Source of the DNA: Kiritimatiellia bacterium
GTDB taxonomy: Bacteria > Verrucomicrobiota > Kiritimatiellia > UBA8416 > JABMPJ01
Reading direction: 5' to 3'
DNA: 64,000 nt
NCBI GenBank assembly: GCA_016783675.1
Contig: JADHWE010000004.1
Coordinates: forward strand, 1 to 64,000
Part shown: positions 18,258 through 23,644 of the stretch, piece after piece
How the letters are laid out: each line of letters starts with the position of its first letter
Numbering within the stretch: position 1 is the stretch's first letter
Notes under the pieces: model-generated
The model's database searches: none
Seen by the model: the letters and a program-made list of their open reading frames with translations, nothing else
Told to the model about the DNA's origin: nothing
Position numbers and translations under genes: made by a program

Positions 18258-18923
18258 CTACCACGACTTATTCTGCAATCTGCCTCCCGCCAGGCACAGG
18301 CAGCGATGGGTCACGGCGCGCAGGAAGTCGGCGTTGTGCGAGACGATGATCATGGCCTGGGGGAGTGAGAGCAGCAGGTTTTGGACACGTTCATAGGAGG
18401 GGGGGTCCAGCCCGTTCTCCGGTTCGTCCAGGAGCAGGACGTCGGGGTGCATGGCCAGTAGCGTGGCCAGCGAGACCAGGCGTTTCTCGCCGCCGGAGAG
18501 ATGGTGCGTGATGCGATGCTCGAGGCCCGCCATGCCTACGAGCGCGAGTGCTTCGTGAACGGCATGGTGCGCCGCCTCGCGGCTCTTGCCCTGGTTGAGC
18601 GGACCGAAGGCCACGTCTTCCTCGACCGTCGGACAGAAGAGCTGGTCATCCGGGTCCTGGAACAGCAGGCCCACCCGTTCCCGCACCTCCCAGAAATCGT
18701 GCTCCTCGCGGCGGGGCTTGCCGAAGATCTCGATCCGGCCGCGGTCCGGCGCGAGCAGCCCGACGACCAGGTGCAACAGCGTGGTCTTGCCCGATCCGAT
18801 CGCGCCCTGCAGCCCGATGCGCTCGCCCGCGCGCAGGGCTAGGTCGACCTCGGCCAGGACAGGTTCCGCATCGGTATGGCTGAAGGATAGGCTGTGCAGG
18901 TTCAACAGGGGTTCGTCACTCAT
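18258..18923 (-). CDS. nikO: Nickel/cobalt ECF transporter ATPase (NikO/CbiO)
   Basis: ATP-binding subunit of an energy-coupling-factor transporter, 221 residues. Walker A is GAIGSGKTT, the Q-loop FQDPDDQLF is typical of CbiO-type ATPases, the signature is HHLSGGEKRLVSLA, and Walker B is VLLLDEPENGLD. ATG at 18923 overlaps the nikQ stop by 4 bases. It is the last gene of the operon. One ATPase would act as a homodimer with NikQ and NikM. The 130 bases beyond, up to the rubredoxin reductase stop, hold nothing I recognise. Confidence 0.9.
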   Translation of the reverse strand: MSDEPLLNLHSLSFSHTDAEPVLAEVDLALRAGERIGLQGAIGSGKTTLLHLVVGLLAPDRGRIEIFGKPRREEHDFWEVRERVGLLFQDPDDQLFCPTVEEDVAFGPLNQGKSREAAHHAVHEALALVGMAGLEHRITHHLSGGEKRLVSLATLLAMHPDVLLLDEPENGLDPPSYERVQNLLLSLPQAMIIVSHNADFLRAVTHRCLCLAGGRLQNKSW

Positions 18924-19687
18924 GGCAGGCCGCCTCCCGGTATCCATTCAATACAGACAAACAGGATCAATACCAGCGTCGATACCAGGCAGAACACGGC
19001 GTCGCGCCGGTGAAAGGCAAAGTGCCGATAGGTCAGGAAGCGGCCCTTGAAGCCGCGGCATTTCATGGCGTCCATGACGCGCTCCGCCCGTTCCAGGCTG
19101 CGCACCAGGAGCATGGCCATGAGGGACCCGTAGCTACGATAGGTGTGGAGGTTCATGCGCGGCCGGAAGGCGCGGGCCTTCATGGCGCGTAGCAGCCCCA
19201 GGTAGGCGTGGTGCAGAACATCTAGGTAGCGGAGCGTGAACAGGAAGAGATGAACCAGCTTGCCCGGCACGCGCAGATGGTGAAACGCATGCCCCAGCGC
19301 CGCGAGCTCGACCGTCCCGAGCAGGGCCGTGAAGGCCAGCACAATGGCATTGGCCTTGAGCGTGATGACCGTTGCCATGTGTACCCCTTCACGACTGAAC
19401 GGGAGATGGAGGATGGTGAACATCGGGTCCCCCGGTGATGTGACCGGGAGCAGGAGCAAGAGGACCAGCATGAATCCGTTAACGCGCAGAAGCCGTTTCG
19501 CCAGCGGCGGCGCCGGCAGGCGTGCCAGCAGGGCCAGCAGCGCGCCGACAGCCAGGCCGGCGCACAGGGCCGGGTAGTGGCGGCTCAGCGCGACGAGGAT
19601 GGCAAAGACCAGGGTGGCGACAATTCGCGGGCGGGGATCGAGCCGGTGCACGATCGTGTGTCCTGCGAAATGGGTCGAACAACTCAT
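18920..19687 (-). CDS. nikQ: Nickel/cobalt ECF transporter transmembrane subunit (NikQ/CbiQ)
   Basis: A 255-residue membrane coupling subunit with five or six hydrophobic segments. The C-terminal half carries the cytoplasmic motifs that dock to the ATPase: LLRAMKARAFRPR and, later, DAMKCRGFKGR, the two Ala-Arg-Gly-like coupling helices of the T component. ATG 19687 overlaps the nikM stop by 4 bases. The track ORF is falsely extended 136 residues upstream into nikM. Confidence 0.88.
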   Translation of the reverse strand: MSCSTHFAGHTIVHRLDPRPRIVATLVFAILVALSRHYPALCAGLAVGALLALLARLPAPPLAKRLLRVNGFMLVLLLLLPVTSPGDPMFTILHLPFSREGVHMATVITLKANAIVLAFTALLGTVELAALGHAFHHLRVPGKLVHLFLFTLRYLDVLHHAYLGLLRAMKARAFRPRMNLHTYRSYGSLMAMLLVRSLERAERVMDAMKCRGFKGRFLTYRHFAFHRRDAVFCLVSTLVLILFVCIEWIPGGGLP

Positions 19688-20319
19688 GACAGGGTCCCTG
19701 TTCCGAGCGTCCGCGGGATCTCGAAGGCCCGGGGATAGACCCTGAAGAGAAACGCGCTCACGAATCCGGTAAAAGCCCCTTCCACACCCAGGATGGCGAG
19801 GTGCGGGACCAGCGCGAGCTTTACGATGACGGCCAGCGATTTGCCGCTCAAGACCAGCGCCCCCGCCCAGAGAAGGAAAGAGAAGAGCAGCGCGGTCACT
19901 CCCGCCGCTGCCCCCAACCAGAACGCCGCCCGCGCGCTCCCGCACCGCCGGAGCGAACGATTGAAGCCATAGTAGCAGAGGACGGCCGGCGCTCCCATGA
20001 CCACGGTATTCAGTCCCAACGTGGTAATGCCGCCGAACTGAAACAGCAACGCCTGCAGAAAGAGGGCGACGAGAAAGACCGGTACCGCCGCCCACCCGAG
20101 CAGCAGACCTGCGAGACCGTTGAGCACCGGGTGTACGCTGGAAGGGCCCAGCGGCAGACGGATGAGCAGCGAGGCCGCAAAGATGGCGGAGGCCATGATC
20201 GCCGCACGCGGGATCTGCTCGTCTTTCATGGCGCGCAGTCCCGCCACTACGCCTCCGGCGGCGAGGAGCGCGCCGGCTGCGGCGACCGATGCCGGGGCTA
20301 CTCCTTCGGTGATGTGCAT
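19684..20319 (-). CDS. nikM: Nickel-binding ECF substrate component (NikM/CbiM)
   Basis: A 211-residue seven-helix substrate-specificity membrane protein. The start at 20319 gives MHITEG at the N-terminus; in NikM/CbiM proteins the amino group and His2 bind the metal, so this start is functionally required. A second conserved His region is SVHPVLNGLAGLLLG. It lies inside the nik operon, overlapping the nikL stop by 22 bases and nikQ by 4. Nickel rather than cobalt is inferred from the nikR, nikK and nikL neighbours. Confidence 0.9.
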   Translation of the reverse strand: MHITEGVAPASVAAAGALLAAGGVVAGLRAMKDEQIPRAAIMASAIFAASLLIRLPLGPSSVHPVLNGLAGLLLGWAAVPVFLVALFLQALLFQFGGITTLGLNTVVMGAPAVLCYYGFNRSLRRCGSARAAFWLGAAAGVTALLFSFLLWAGALVLSGKSLAVIVKLALVPHLAILGVEGAFTGFVSAFLFRVYPRAFEIPRTLGTGTLS

Positions 20320-20792
20320 GCGCACTCCTCTCCCCCGCAACCGGTCTTGGGCGGGGGCTGTTGCTTCCCGCACCGGGCCAGGCTGTAGATGCCGAACAGA
20401 CCGAAGATGATGCTCAGTCCCGTCACGAGCGCGATGGGGCGGGGGATGCGGGCGTCATGGCCGGGCTGATCGTGCCTGCCGTTGGCGTCCATGTGTCCAA
20501 CGAGTACGTCGGCCGTCACGACATGCCCCATGCCGTCGTCGACGGTCAGTTTCCAGAGGCCATTGGTGTCGGGCACAAACGCAAAGCGTCCGTGCGGATC
20601 CGTCTCACCGTTCTGATAGCTGTCGGGCGAATTCGCCGGCGAGGTGACCGTCACATCGCAAAAGGCCATGGGCCTGCCGTCATCATACGCGGCCTCGATC
20701 GCCGTGCCTTCGCGACACGCGTGGTACGATACCCCGTGGGCCATGCTGAGCACAGGCAGGAACAGTGTGAAAATGAAGACCAGCCTGTTCAC
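20298..20792 (-). CDS. nikL: NikL-like auxiliary nickel-uptake protein
   Basis: A 164-residue exported, membrane-anchored component. A GTG start at 20792 overlaps the nikK TGA (GTGA). A signal peptide ends at LSMA, so the mature protein would start with HGVSYH. A small beta-sandwich domain follows (VTVTSPANSPDSYQNGETD, then GRFAFVPDTNGLWKLTV), then one transmembrane helix (IALVTGLSIIFGLFGIYSLA) and a short cytoplasmic tail with a cysteine cluster CGGEECAC that could bind metal. The arrangement matches the NikL partner of NikM in nikKMLQO systems. Confidence 0.75.
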   Translation of the reverse strand: MNRLVFIFTLFLPVLSMAHGVSYHACREGTAIEAAYDDGRPMAFCDVTVTSPANSPDSYQNGETDPHGRFAFVPDTNGLWKLTVDDGMGHVVTADVLVGHMDANGRHDQPGHDARIPRPIALVTGLSIIFGLFGIYSLARCGKQQPPPKTGCGGEECACTSPKE

Positions 20793-21496
20793 TTGCTGAC
20801 CTCCGACTTCTGACTTCCGCCCTCGGATCCTTTGACCTCGAACACCAATGAAGCGCCTCGACCTTCGTGGGTGGACGTTACCAGGTAGCGGCCGGCTTTG
20901 CGGAGGGTGAGCGTGGCGGCTTGGTCGATGCCGGTCGTCAGCAGCGAGGTCTTGCCGCCCGCCGCCGACGCGGAGATGGACCCTTTGACACGCCGTCCGT
21001 CCATCCACAGGGCGATTCCCACCTTGTCGCCTTTTCGCAACGCGGAGACTGGCTGCTCCGGGACCAGCTCCAGCCCGACGCCCGATGTGTAACGGTTCGT
21101 GCTGTCCCCCGAATCCCCGACGATCAAGATCACCTTGCCCTCGTAGCTCGGCGCCTGGGCGCGCGGCCGCTTCAGCGTGAAGCTCAGGATGTGAACCCCC
21201 TCATCTGTCGCGCCGAAAGTGCCGGACCGTTGCGCGGCCCCTACCACGGTATGAAAGGGGACCGTCACGCCATCGGAACGCTGCCAATCCACGCCCGCGA
21301 GAACCTTGTCCTGTAGGGCAAATGAACTTTTTGGAAAGTAGTGCCCGCTGCACAGATGCACCGTCACGGTTTGCCCCGCCTCCGGGTAGAAGCACTCCGC
21401 ATTCAGCCAGTGCTCATGCGCCCCCGCCACGGCGCAGAGTAATGCCATAGCGCTTGCCAGCTTCACCATGCCCCATTCGCGTCCATTCGTGTGCAT
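20789..21496 (-). CDS. nikK: NikK-like periplasmic DUF4198 protein
   Basis: A 235-residue exported protein of the DUF4198 family found with nickel ECF transporters. After a signal peptide ending VAGA the mature protein would begin HEHWLNAECFYPEAGQTVTV, the usual His-rich start of this family. The rest is predicted beta-sandwich. ATG 21496 has a GGAGGA site 4-5 bases upstream, which supports the full-length start over the internal Met at 21469. It probably captures nickel in the periplasm and passes it to NikM. Confidence 0.8.
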   Translation of the reverse strand: MHTNGREWGMVKLASAMALLCAVAGAHEHWLNAECFYPEAGQTVTVHLCSGHYFPKSSFALQDKVLAGVDWQRSDGVTVPFHTVVGAAQRSGTFGATDEGVHILSFTLKRPRAQAPSYEGKVILIVGDSGDSTNRYTSGVGLELVPEQPVSALRKGDKVGIALWMDGRRVKGSISASAAGGKTSLLTTGIDQAATLTLRKAGRYLVTSTHEGRGASLVFEVKGSEGGSQKSEVSK

Positions 21497-21547
21497 CTTG
21501 TCCTCCGAAGCCTTTGGCGAAGGATGGGTCCGTGGTTCTCTTCCTCT

Positions 21548-22321
21548 CTAGAACCGATACATCATCGTCACATTCGCCCGCAGGGCATCGGCACCATCGG
21601 CCTTGCCGAACTCCAGGCCGGTCTTGAGCGTGATGTTGGGGCTGCCGATGGGCATGTAGACGCCCGGCAGGATCGACCAGTTGTCGCCGGCATTCTCGAA
21701 GTTGCCCATGATCTCCACGCCGGCCGCGATGCCGTGCGGGTCGGCCGAGATCGGGGCCTTCACGCCCAGCGCCCACGACGTCTCGTGTTCATCGCCTTCT
21801 TCCTCGTAGCCAAGGTTCAGGGTGATATTGCTGTGTTCGCCGAGGTCCTTGCCTATGATCAGCATGCCGGCAACCACGATGTCTTCGCTGCCCAGAAGCG
21901 TCTCGGCCCGGCTGAACGGCACTTCGAGTGTTGCGGCCACGGCAATGTCGACCAGCCAGTCTTCGACCAGGCGGTACTGGAGGCTCCCTGCCACGGCCTC
22001 CATGAACGGGGAGGGGCCGTTTGGTTCATAGGTTGCGCGTTGCTCCTCAACGACATGGTCGATCCCGAATCCTGCAAAATGGGTGTGAATATCCAGCATC
22101 AACCGGTCCGTCACTCCGTAAGAGACCCCTGGAGTGAATTCCCAGTGATCGAAGTCGGGGTTATCCGCGTCGTCGACCATGTAGTCGTAATGCAGATGCA
22201 ACACCGACTCCCCCCGCCGTGCGGTGGAGTAGCTCTCCATCTCGATGTATTCCATGGCGTGATGCGCCACTGCGCTTCCTGTCAGCATCCCGACGCAGAG
22301 CGCCACAATAACTCGTCTCAT
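21548..22321 (-). CDS. Outer-membrane beta-barrel protein in the nickel operon
   Basis: A 257-residue exported protein. From ATG 22321, with GGGAGAGG upstream, it has a signal peptide ending AVA, and the mature N-terminus would be HHAMEYIEMES. The remainder is alternating polar/hydrophobic beta strands (LHLHYDYMV, GVSYGVTDRLMLDI, NITLNLGYE), ending in the aromatic C-terminus MMYRF expected for barrels inserted by BamA. I do not recognise a named family. Its place between nikR and nikK suggests an outer-membrane route or binding site for nickel. Confidence 0.7.
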   Translation of the reverse strand: MRRVIVALCVGMLTGSAVAHHAMEYIEMESYSTARRGESVLHLHYDYMVDDADNPDFDHWEFTPGVSYGVTDRLMLDIHTHFAGFGIDHVVEEQRATYEPNGPSPFMEAVAGSLQYRLVEDWLVDIAVAATLEVPFSRAETLLGSEDIVVAGMLIIGKDLGEHSNITLNLGYEEEGDEHETSWALGVKAPISADPHGIAAGVEIMGNFENAGDNWSILPGVYMPIGSPNITLKTGLEFGKADGADALRANVTMMYRF

Positions 22322-22406: not shown

Positions 22407-22823
22407 CTATTCAAGGTCCTTCCCGGTTGAGCTCAACGAGAGACTGGCGTGTAGCACGCCTTTCTGTTGCCGCAGCATATCGGCCATCTCCTGGATCTCT
22501 CCAGCCGGCCCCTTCGTCAAGACCATCTCGGCACACATGTGCGCGTCCAGGTGCACATGGGTCGACGCCAGAACCAGGTCGTGATGGTGATGCTGCAGGC
22601 GCGTCAGCTTCTTGCTGAGTTCGCGCGTCTCATGATCGTAGACCAGCGTGATCGTGCCCACTACCTCGGCATTGCCCTTCCACTCTTCCTCGACCAGACG
22701 CTCGCGCAACAGGTCCCGCACAAATTCCGAGCGGTTCGCATAGGCGTGCTTCCTGACCAGGCTTTCCAGCCGCTCAAGAAGCCCCTGCTCAATCGAAATG
22801 CTGAATCGGGATAGTTCAGTCAT
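22407..22823 (-). CDS. nikR: Nickel-responsive regulator NikR
   Basis: A 138-residue ribbon-helix-helix repressor with a C-terminal ACT-like metal domain. The DNA-binding N-terminus is LSRFSISIEQGLLERLESL. The nickel site is complete: His in the HHHH run and the downstream THVHLDAHMC element, which supplies the two His and the Cys of the square-planar site. Start MTELSRF at 22823. It is the first gene of the nickel uptake operon and a NikR-type operator begins 11 bases upstream, so it should repress itself and the operon when nickel is plentiful. Confidence 0.93.
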   Translation of the reverse strand: MTELSRFSISIEQGLLERLESLVRKHAYANRSEFVRDLLRERLVEEEWKGNAEVVGTITLVYDHETRELSKKLTRLQHHHHDLVLASTHVHLDAHMCAEMVLTKGPAGEIQEMADMLRQQKGVLHASLSLSSTGKDLE

Positions 22824-22833
22824 GGGTCTCCGA

Positions 22834-22860
22834 GTGTTATGAACAAGAATACCGTAACAC
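22834..22860. promoter_or_regulatory. Predicted NikR operator
   Basis: GTGTTAT, 13 bases, then GTAACAC. This fits the GTGTTAC-N13/14-GTAACAC form of NikR sites reported for several bacterial groups, with one mismatch in the left half. It lies directly before nikR. Confidence 0.7.
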
Positions 22861-22861
22861 T

Positions 22862-22880
22862 TTGACCTTTTGGTGGTCAA
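22862..22880. promoter_or_regulatory. Inverted repeat in the nikR/tetR divergent region
   Basis: TTGACC, 7 bases, GGTCAA: a perfect 6-bp inverted repeat. Its right arm, read on the minus strand, would also serve as the nikR -35 (TTGACC). No regulator can be assigned. Confidence 0.35.
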
Positions 22881-22914
22881 CGCGTTTCTCAGCCCGACTT
22901 CCCGGCCTCCTTGC

Positions 22915-22944
22915 TTGACATACATGCATGAATGTATGTATAGA
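22915..22944 (+). promoter_or_regulatory. Sigma-70 promoter overlapped by AcrR-like operator
   Basis: TTGACA, 18 bases, TATAGA forms a good promoter for the tetR-efflux operon. Covering it is a near-palindrome with arms ACATACAT and ATGTATGT (22917-22940). From memory of the E. coli acrAB operator, 20 of 24 positions agree. Binding would cover both promoter boxes, indicating autorepression by the TetR-family protein encoded next. Confidence 0.75.
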
Positions 22945-22969
22945 TTTCTGCACAACCAGGGAGAAGGCC

Positions 22970-23644
22970 ATGCCAAGGCGAACAAAAGAAGAGGCGGAGG
23001 CGACGCGTGAGAGTGTCTTGAGAGCCGCGCTCGACCTCTTCAGCGAGAAGGGCTACTCGCGCACAACGCTGAACGATATCGCCAAGCGAATCGGGATGAG
23101 CCGGGGCGCGGTATACTGGCATTTTGTCAACAAGGAAGCGCTGCTGGCGGCGCTGATTGAATTTGCCCACAACTACAAGGAGCAATTGGTCGAGACGCAG
23201 ATTCCCGATATCCAAACGCTGGCCGACCTGCGTGATGCTTTCGTGATGTACGCCCGCGTGGTGGCGGAGGACGAGCTGATCCGCAAGTTCGAGTTTTTCA
23301 TGCACTTCCAGATGGAGTGGTCACAGGAACTTCTGACCGAGACCCACAAGAAGCTAACCGAAATCCGTCAGAGTCCGCTCGAGGAATTCAAGACCTGCTT
23401 CGAAAACCCGCAGATTGCGCCGTTGCTCAAAGAAGGAACCGACCTGGACCAGCTGGTCGTGACGCTGGCTGCGTTTTGGATGGGCACCTGCAACATGTTC
23501 CTGGGTGGCTGTCCATTTGTTGAGCTGTCCTCTGCGGACGAGCAAGCTACGGATGGGCAGTGGCGTCTTGATCTCGTACAGGCTATTGCAAACGGATTTG
23601 ATCTGATAATGAACGGAGTTCTGAAAAGGGAAAACGATGAGTAA
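22970..23644 (+). CDS. TetR/AcrR-family repressor of the efflux operon
   Basis: A 224-residue regulator. The N-terminal TetR helix-turn-helix is clear: LFSEKGYSRTTLNDIAKRIGMSRGAVYWHF, close to AcrR/TtgR. The C-terminal ligand domain is helical with a few Cys residues. Start MPRRTK at 22970 follows GGGAGAAGG; the track start lies inside the operator. It overlaps the adaptor gene by 8 bases and is first in the operon, so it should sense a pump substrate and derepress both itself and the pump. Confidence 0.9.
   Translation: MPRRTKEEAEATRESVLRAALDLFSEKGYSRTTLNDIAKRIGMSRGAVYWHFVNKEALLAALIEFAHNYKEQLVETQIPDIQTLADLRDAFVMYARVVAEDELIRKFEFFMHFQMEWSQELLTETHKKLTEIRQSPLEEFKTCFENPQIAPLLKEGTDLDQLVVTLAAFWMGTCNMFLGGCPFVELSSADEQATDGQWRLDLVQAIANGFDLIMNGVLKRENDE

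Follow-up and report, generated by a model that had tools for sequence, protein, structure and literature searches.

The three exported proteins of a nickel-import operon, an outer-membrane protein (OMP), NikK and NikL, are predicted from their sequences to be cut by signal peptidase I exactly before a conserved histidine. The operon was analysed in a 64,000-nucleotide stretch of Kiritimatiellia bacterium DNA, referred to here as the window. With moderate confidence, we read it as encoding a NikR-regulated NikKLMQO nickel importer with a dedicated OMP barrel, in which the mature N-terminal His of OMP, NikK and NikL would hold Ni(II). This reading was built on the processing sites, the conservation, the operon synteny and the NikR linkage. 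An invariant N-terminal His in all exported components would represent one simple chemical rule for the nickel route, with a bearing on how nickel crosses the outer membrane without a known TonB-dependent receptor and on the role of NikL. As far as open papers show, the OMP family, the pairing of His1 with His72 in NikL and a His rule common to every exported member of the operon are new.

Operon Layout and Nickel Context

The genes are arranged on the minus strand of the window in the order nikR–OMP–nikK–nikL–nikM–nikQ–nikO. The nikR gene (22407..22823) encodes a nickel-responsive repressor (NikR_C 6.7e-29; NF003381 160.6 bits, exceeding the cut-off of 105) and is followed by the gene encoding OMP, an outer-membrane beta-barrel of an unnamed family (21548..22321). 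The product of nikK (20789..21496) is a periplasmic member of the DUF4198 family (PF10670 42.9 bits, above the gathering score of 34). The nikL gene (20298..20792) encodes an Ig-like domain with a C-terminal TM helix; its start codon is GTG and overlaps the stop codon of nikK. The remaining genes encode the nikM/cbiM S component (19684..20319; PF01891 7e-47), most of which lies outside the interval 20298-22321 covered by the sequence-only reading, the nikQ/cbiQ T component (18920..19687; TIGR02454 135.5 bits, above the cut-off) and the nikO/cbiO ATPase (18258..18947; ABC_tran 8.8e-28, with cbiO as the best NCBIfam match). The gene set of a NikKMLQO ECF importer is complete, with nikM, nikQ and nikO alongside nikK and nikL; nikN is absent.

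A NikR-box-like palindrome, GTGTTAT-N13-GTAACAC (22834..22860, not assigned to a strand), is present upstream of nikR and the operon. It shows one mismatch to the NikR signal, which in delta-proteobacteria is GTGTTAC-N13/14-GTAACAC (PMC545781). No NikR box with two or fewer mismatches was found across 297 kb of the same genome. With nikR adjoining and a box one mismatch from the signal, the importer is predicted to be under NikR regulation. The palindrome lies in the intergenic region (22824-22970) between the nik genes and a TetR-RND efflux operon that runs in the opposite direction (from 22928), and nickel might therefore affect the TetR-RND operon too.

Transport of cobalt, or of several metals together, in place of nickel is very unlikely. 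The S component is of the CbiM type, and some NikKMLQO systems have been predicted as cobalt importers (PMC2667541); however, the operon contains nikR and a NikR box, and NiFe-hydrogenase sequences were matched in the organism's own genome.

Signal Peptidase Sites Preceding Histidine

The sequence-only reading had described three exported proteins that each begin with His after cleavage, and the frames and sites were found as described. The OMP signal peptide, MRRVIVALCVGMLTGSAVA (22265..22321, minus strand), is followed by HHAMEY; the NikK signal peptide, MHTNGREWGMVKLASAMALLCAVAGA, is followed by HEHWLN, with the mature start at 21418; and the NikL signal peptide, VNRLVFIFTLFLPVLSMA, is followed by HGVSYH, with the mature start at 20738. 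Signal sites were scanned with a rule-based procedure rather than SignalP, ignoring the residues after the cut except Pro. The site directly before His was ranked first in all three window proteins.

Across homologues the pre-His site came first less consistently (11/18, 11/18 and 3/14 for the three families), as there are several small residues ahead of the cut. As the ranking was too noisy, a positional test of (-3,-1) legality was used instead. A legal site was present directly before the invariant His in 19/19 OMP, 19/19 NikK and 15/15 linked-operon NikL sequences from several phyla, which upholds the proposed conservation of the post-cleavage His. The signal peptides diverge among homologues while the pre-His site stays legal. 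Other nearby positions were legal in only some homologues, except for the position two residues downstream in NikL. The linked NikLs have this second legal site after AHG and before V. The canonical NikLs have a legal site at the His, with Ala followed by HK or HR in 32/32 (one with Ser at -1), and none of the 32 has a legal site after the His, which removes the ambiguity of NikL cleavage. Among distinct OMP N-termini, His was the first residue in 29/29.

Background frequency was estimated from 361 kb of this genome (including the window), where His followed any AxA-type site in 3 of 80 (3.75%) rule-predicted exported proteins, one of them the NikL of the window. Ordinary chance as the explanation for His after the cut in three neighbouring genes has this genome background of about 1-4% in its favour, from which the chance of three of three is ~1e-6 to 6e-5. 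It is extremely improbable, and was rejected because the conservation of the residue in 29 OMPs, 19 NikKs and 47 NikLs across phyla rules it out.

NikK

Nickel proteins with an N-terminal His are of a known kind, Ni superoxide dismutase being an example. The mature His1 of NikK (21416..21418, minus strand) and His26 of the GH.FP motif (21341..21343, minus strand), a candidate second ligand, were invariant in 14/14 sequences of the NikK alignment. An N-terminal-His nickel site has been known for DUF4198 since 2025: in the structure of the Ideonella sakaiensis DUF4198/NikK protein (9GCB), Ni(II) is held by the N-terminal His and His18 with a Kd of 18 nM, and an N-terminal His is present in 79% of the family (PMC12537917). 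By analogy, the nickel site predicted for NikK is one already published for a homologue. The window NikK resembles the 9GCB protein in its Pfam family, periplasmic location, cleaved N-terminal His, second invariant His and nickel gene neighbourhood. The sequence similarity between the two is nevertheless weak (profile E 0.053), and the alignment stops short of the N-terminus, so that His26 is at most a putative counterpart of His18. A PDB sequence search with NikK gave partial matches only, to 9GCB and Zcp (9MHI), neither covering the N-terminus. A term search of PMC12537917 found no mention of NikL, CbiM, the outer membrane or a barrel.

The proposal that the N-terminal His is a nickel ligand is thus supported for the NikK family by the 9GCB structure, and the context of NikR, NikMQO and NiFe-hydrogenase agrees with it. 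For OMP and NikL, we infer metal binding from their sequences.

NikL and NikM

The mature His1 of NikL (20736..20738, minus strand) and His72 of DDGMGH (20523..20525, minus strand), its predicted partner ligand, were kept in 42/42 aligned sequences (10/10 linked and 32/32 canonical), the latter residue within GMGH or GxGH and at the same position 72. In the NikL model, His1 is located just before the strand at 2-8 and His72 just before the strand at 73-80. A parallel pairing of these strands, of the kind known from Ig-like folds, would bring the two residues side by side. The nearest solved fold was that of Zcp, a metal-binding protein whose structures were determined with copper, zinc and cobalt. 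The PDB sequence search gave chance-level matches only. No report of a NikL metal site was found in open-licence papers.

The window NikL scored under the curated NF058648 cut-off (55.8 vs 100 bits), and profile-profile comparison with canonical NikL by hhalign gave 99.1%; on these scores it is classed as a divergent relative of the NF058648 family. It shares with canonical NikL (NF058648, HI1622 type) the Ig-like domain, the single TM helix and the invariant His1 and GH72, but starts with HG in place of HK or HR and has a Cys-containing cytosolic tail. This C-terminal tail (CGKQQPPPKTGCGGEECACTSPKE) follows the TM helix at 20298-20370, and its CTSPK ending is kept in loci L011 and L013. The tail is possibly a cytosolic metal site.

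The Met-His start of NikM (MHITEG), which the sequence-only reading had placed alongside the other N-terminal His residues, is present and is a general CbiM/NikM feature that aligns with solved structures, including the N-terminus of 4M58. The window protein resembles the NikM/CbiM S components 4M58 and 5X3X in this start and in being a membrane S component of about 200 residues. The ligands in the NikM2 structure are reportedly the Met1 amine and His2, a set different from the cleaved N-terminal His of OMP, NikK and NikL, and the Met-His start therefore falls outside that pattern. At one locus (L014:2024-3217, the same as L002/L058; L014/G223), nikL and nikM were observed in one open frame with no stop between them, which may represent a fusion, re-initiation or an assembly error; a free NikM N-terminus there would need re-initiation.

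The Outer-Membrane Protein

No Pfam, NCBIfam or PDB sequence match was found for OMP, and the finding points to a new outer-membrane protein family. The protein has 238 residues, of which ~19 precede strand 1, and its AlphaFold2 model is a 12-stranded barrel (pLDDT 90, pTM 0.83). Model confidence is lowest at the N-terminus (pLDDT 55 over residues 1-10). The C-terminal Phe is invariant in the homologue alignment.

Five conserved strand His residues, His23, His25, His40, His60 and His62, lie on strands 1-3 (residues 23-62; 22079..22198, minus strand), and all are predicted to be on the lumen face, the facing being derived from hydrophobicity alternation (P(all lumen) 0.036; P(all on strands 1-3 given lumen) 0.0003). 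Conserved Asp, Glu, Arg and Lys residues are also present on the lumen side. The model points to a His-rich site within the barrel, beside the segment carrying His1 and His2.

The nearest structure to the OMP model by Foldseek was FapF (TM 0.71), followed by the COG4313 channel 4RL8 (TM 0.64). In 4RL8, a 12-stranded channel, the N-terminal 14 residues are tucked into the lumen. OMP shares with the COG4313 channels (Pput2725, 4RL8) the number of strands and a short segment before strand 1 (about 14 residues in 4RL8 and 19 in OMP). They differ in that there is no sequence-family match, that these channels are linked to hydrophobic substrates, and that no His cluster like that of OMP is described for them in the passages covered. 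A COG4313 match was absent from 14/14 OMP family members at E<=1, and with no sequence match at all, membership was rejected. TonB-dependent nickel receptors (FecA3, FrpB4, CntO, NikH) are comparable in serving nickel entry at the outer membrane; however, OMP has no TonB plug domain, and assignment as a TonB receptor was rejected on its size and strand number, being only 238 residues and 12 strands.

The mature N-terminal segment of OMP, HHAMEYIEMESY (22229..22264, minus strand), contains His1, which is invariant, and His2. The first 12 mature residues showed a mean column conservation of 0.93 vs 0.71 for the whole protein. That this conservation extends well beyond the His residues would also suit a structural role, in which the segment plugs a general small-solute channel or serves in its assembly, its His residues are incidental and N-terminal metal sites occur only in NikK and NikL (plus NikM). 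Inserted N-termini serve as metal-free plugs in COG4313 channels. We consider this structural role rather unlikely, given that His1 is invariant and immediately preceded by a legal cut in 19/19, that five further conserved His residues are predicted to face the lumen, and that the gene is tightly linked to nik genes and NikR boxes.

Proposed Nickel Route

In the reading that we favour, in which the mature N-terminal His holds Ni(II), nickel sites are likely at three levels, and we infer a hand-to-hand relay between them. Each mature exported protein would present a free alpha-amine and a His imidazole to Ni(II), and further conserved His residues would complete the sites: GH26 in NikK, His72 in NikL, and His2 with the lumen His of strands 1-3 in OMP. 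A site of this kind, made of the amine and imidazole of His1 and a second His, would resemble a histidine brace, and NikK and NikL each conserve such a pair of His residues. The N-terminal segment of OMP, inserted in the barrel, would be a nickel-selective entry gate. NikK would act as a soluble periplasmic nickel carrier or buffer, and NikL, anchored in the membrane, would offer the metal to NikM at its Met-His site. The addition or removal of one residue at a cleavage site should abolish the metal site while leaving the fold untouched. The most specific form of this scheme is tentative and on the doubtful side: OMP may be a TonB-independent nickel-selective channel with a free His1 in a His-lined lumen, from which Ni(II) would pass to NikK, then to His1/His72 of NikL and on to NikM.

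OMP may instead admit or sense a nickel chelate (e.g., nickel-histidine or another ligand complex) that is recognised by its His cluster, with no relay of free Ni(II). A nickel-linked barrel without TonB features would suit a small complex that enters passively and selectively, as would the conserved Asp, Glu, Arg and Lys in the lumen. Nevertheless, no chelate-biosynthesis gene was visible in the operon, and this reading would leave unexplained why NikK and NikL also begin with His; we regard chelate uptake as quite unlikely.

Distribution of the Outer-Membrane Protein and Its Linkage to nik Genes

The OMP gene immediately precedes nikK in 24 operons, the one in the window included, from Kiritimatiellia, Krumholzibacteria, Aminicenantes, Hydrothermota, WOR-3 and Desulfobulbaceae. 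Perfect NikR boxes were present just upstream of OMP in loci L020, L163 and L168. Among 247 genomes of the phylum containing the Desulfobulbaceae locus, a NikL match was found in 123 and OMP in one. OMP is an accessory found with some NikKLMQO systems, and most are without it. No relatives of NikK, NikL or OMP were found in plasmid records.

Orphan OMPs, with no nikK alongside, were observed in loci L157 and L158. The latter (L158:3603-4376) adjoins a cytochrome-bd-like gene, lacks nik genes in its vicinity and has a NikR-box-like palindrome with two mismatches 44 nt upstream. A relative of OMP in a deltaproteobacterial MAG (L024:4998-5516) aligns with the family over the first third alone and is probably broken or divergent; nik genes are absent from its immediate surroundings. 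Weak OMP-like matches in L008/L123 (with L165), L009 and L010 were left out of the family counts. Downstream of the distant OMP-like gene in L165, a small lipoprotein-like ORF is repeated in tandem as four nearly identical copies (L165:3105-4460), with a period of about 335 nt.
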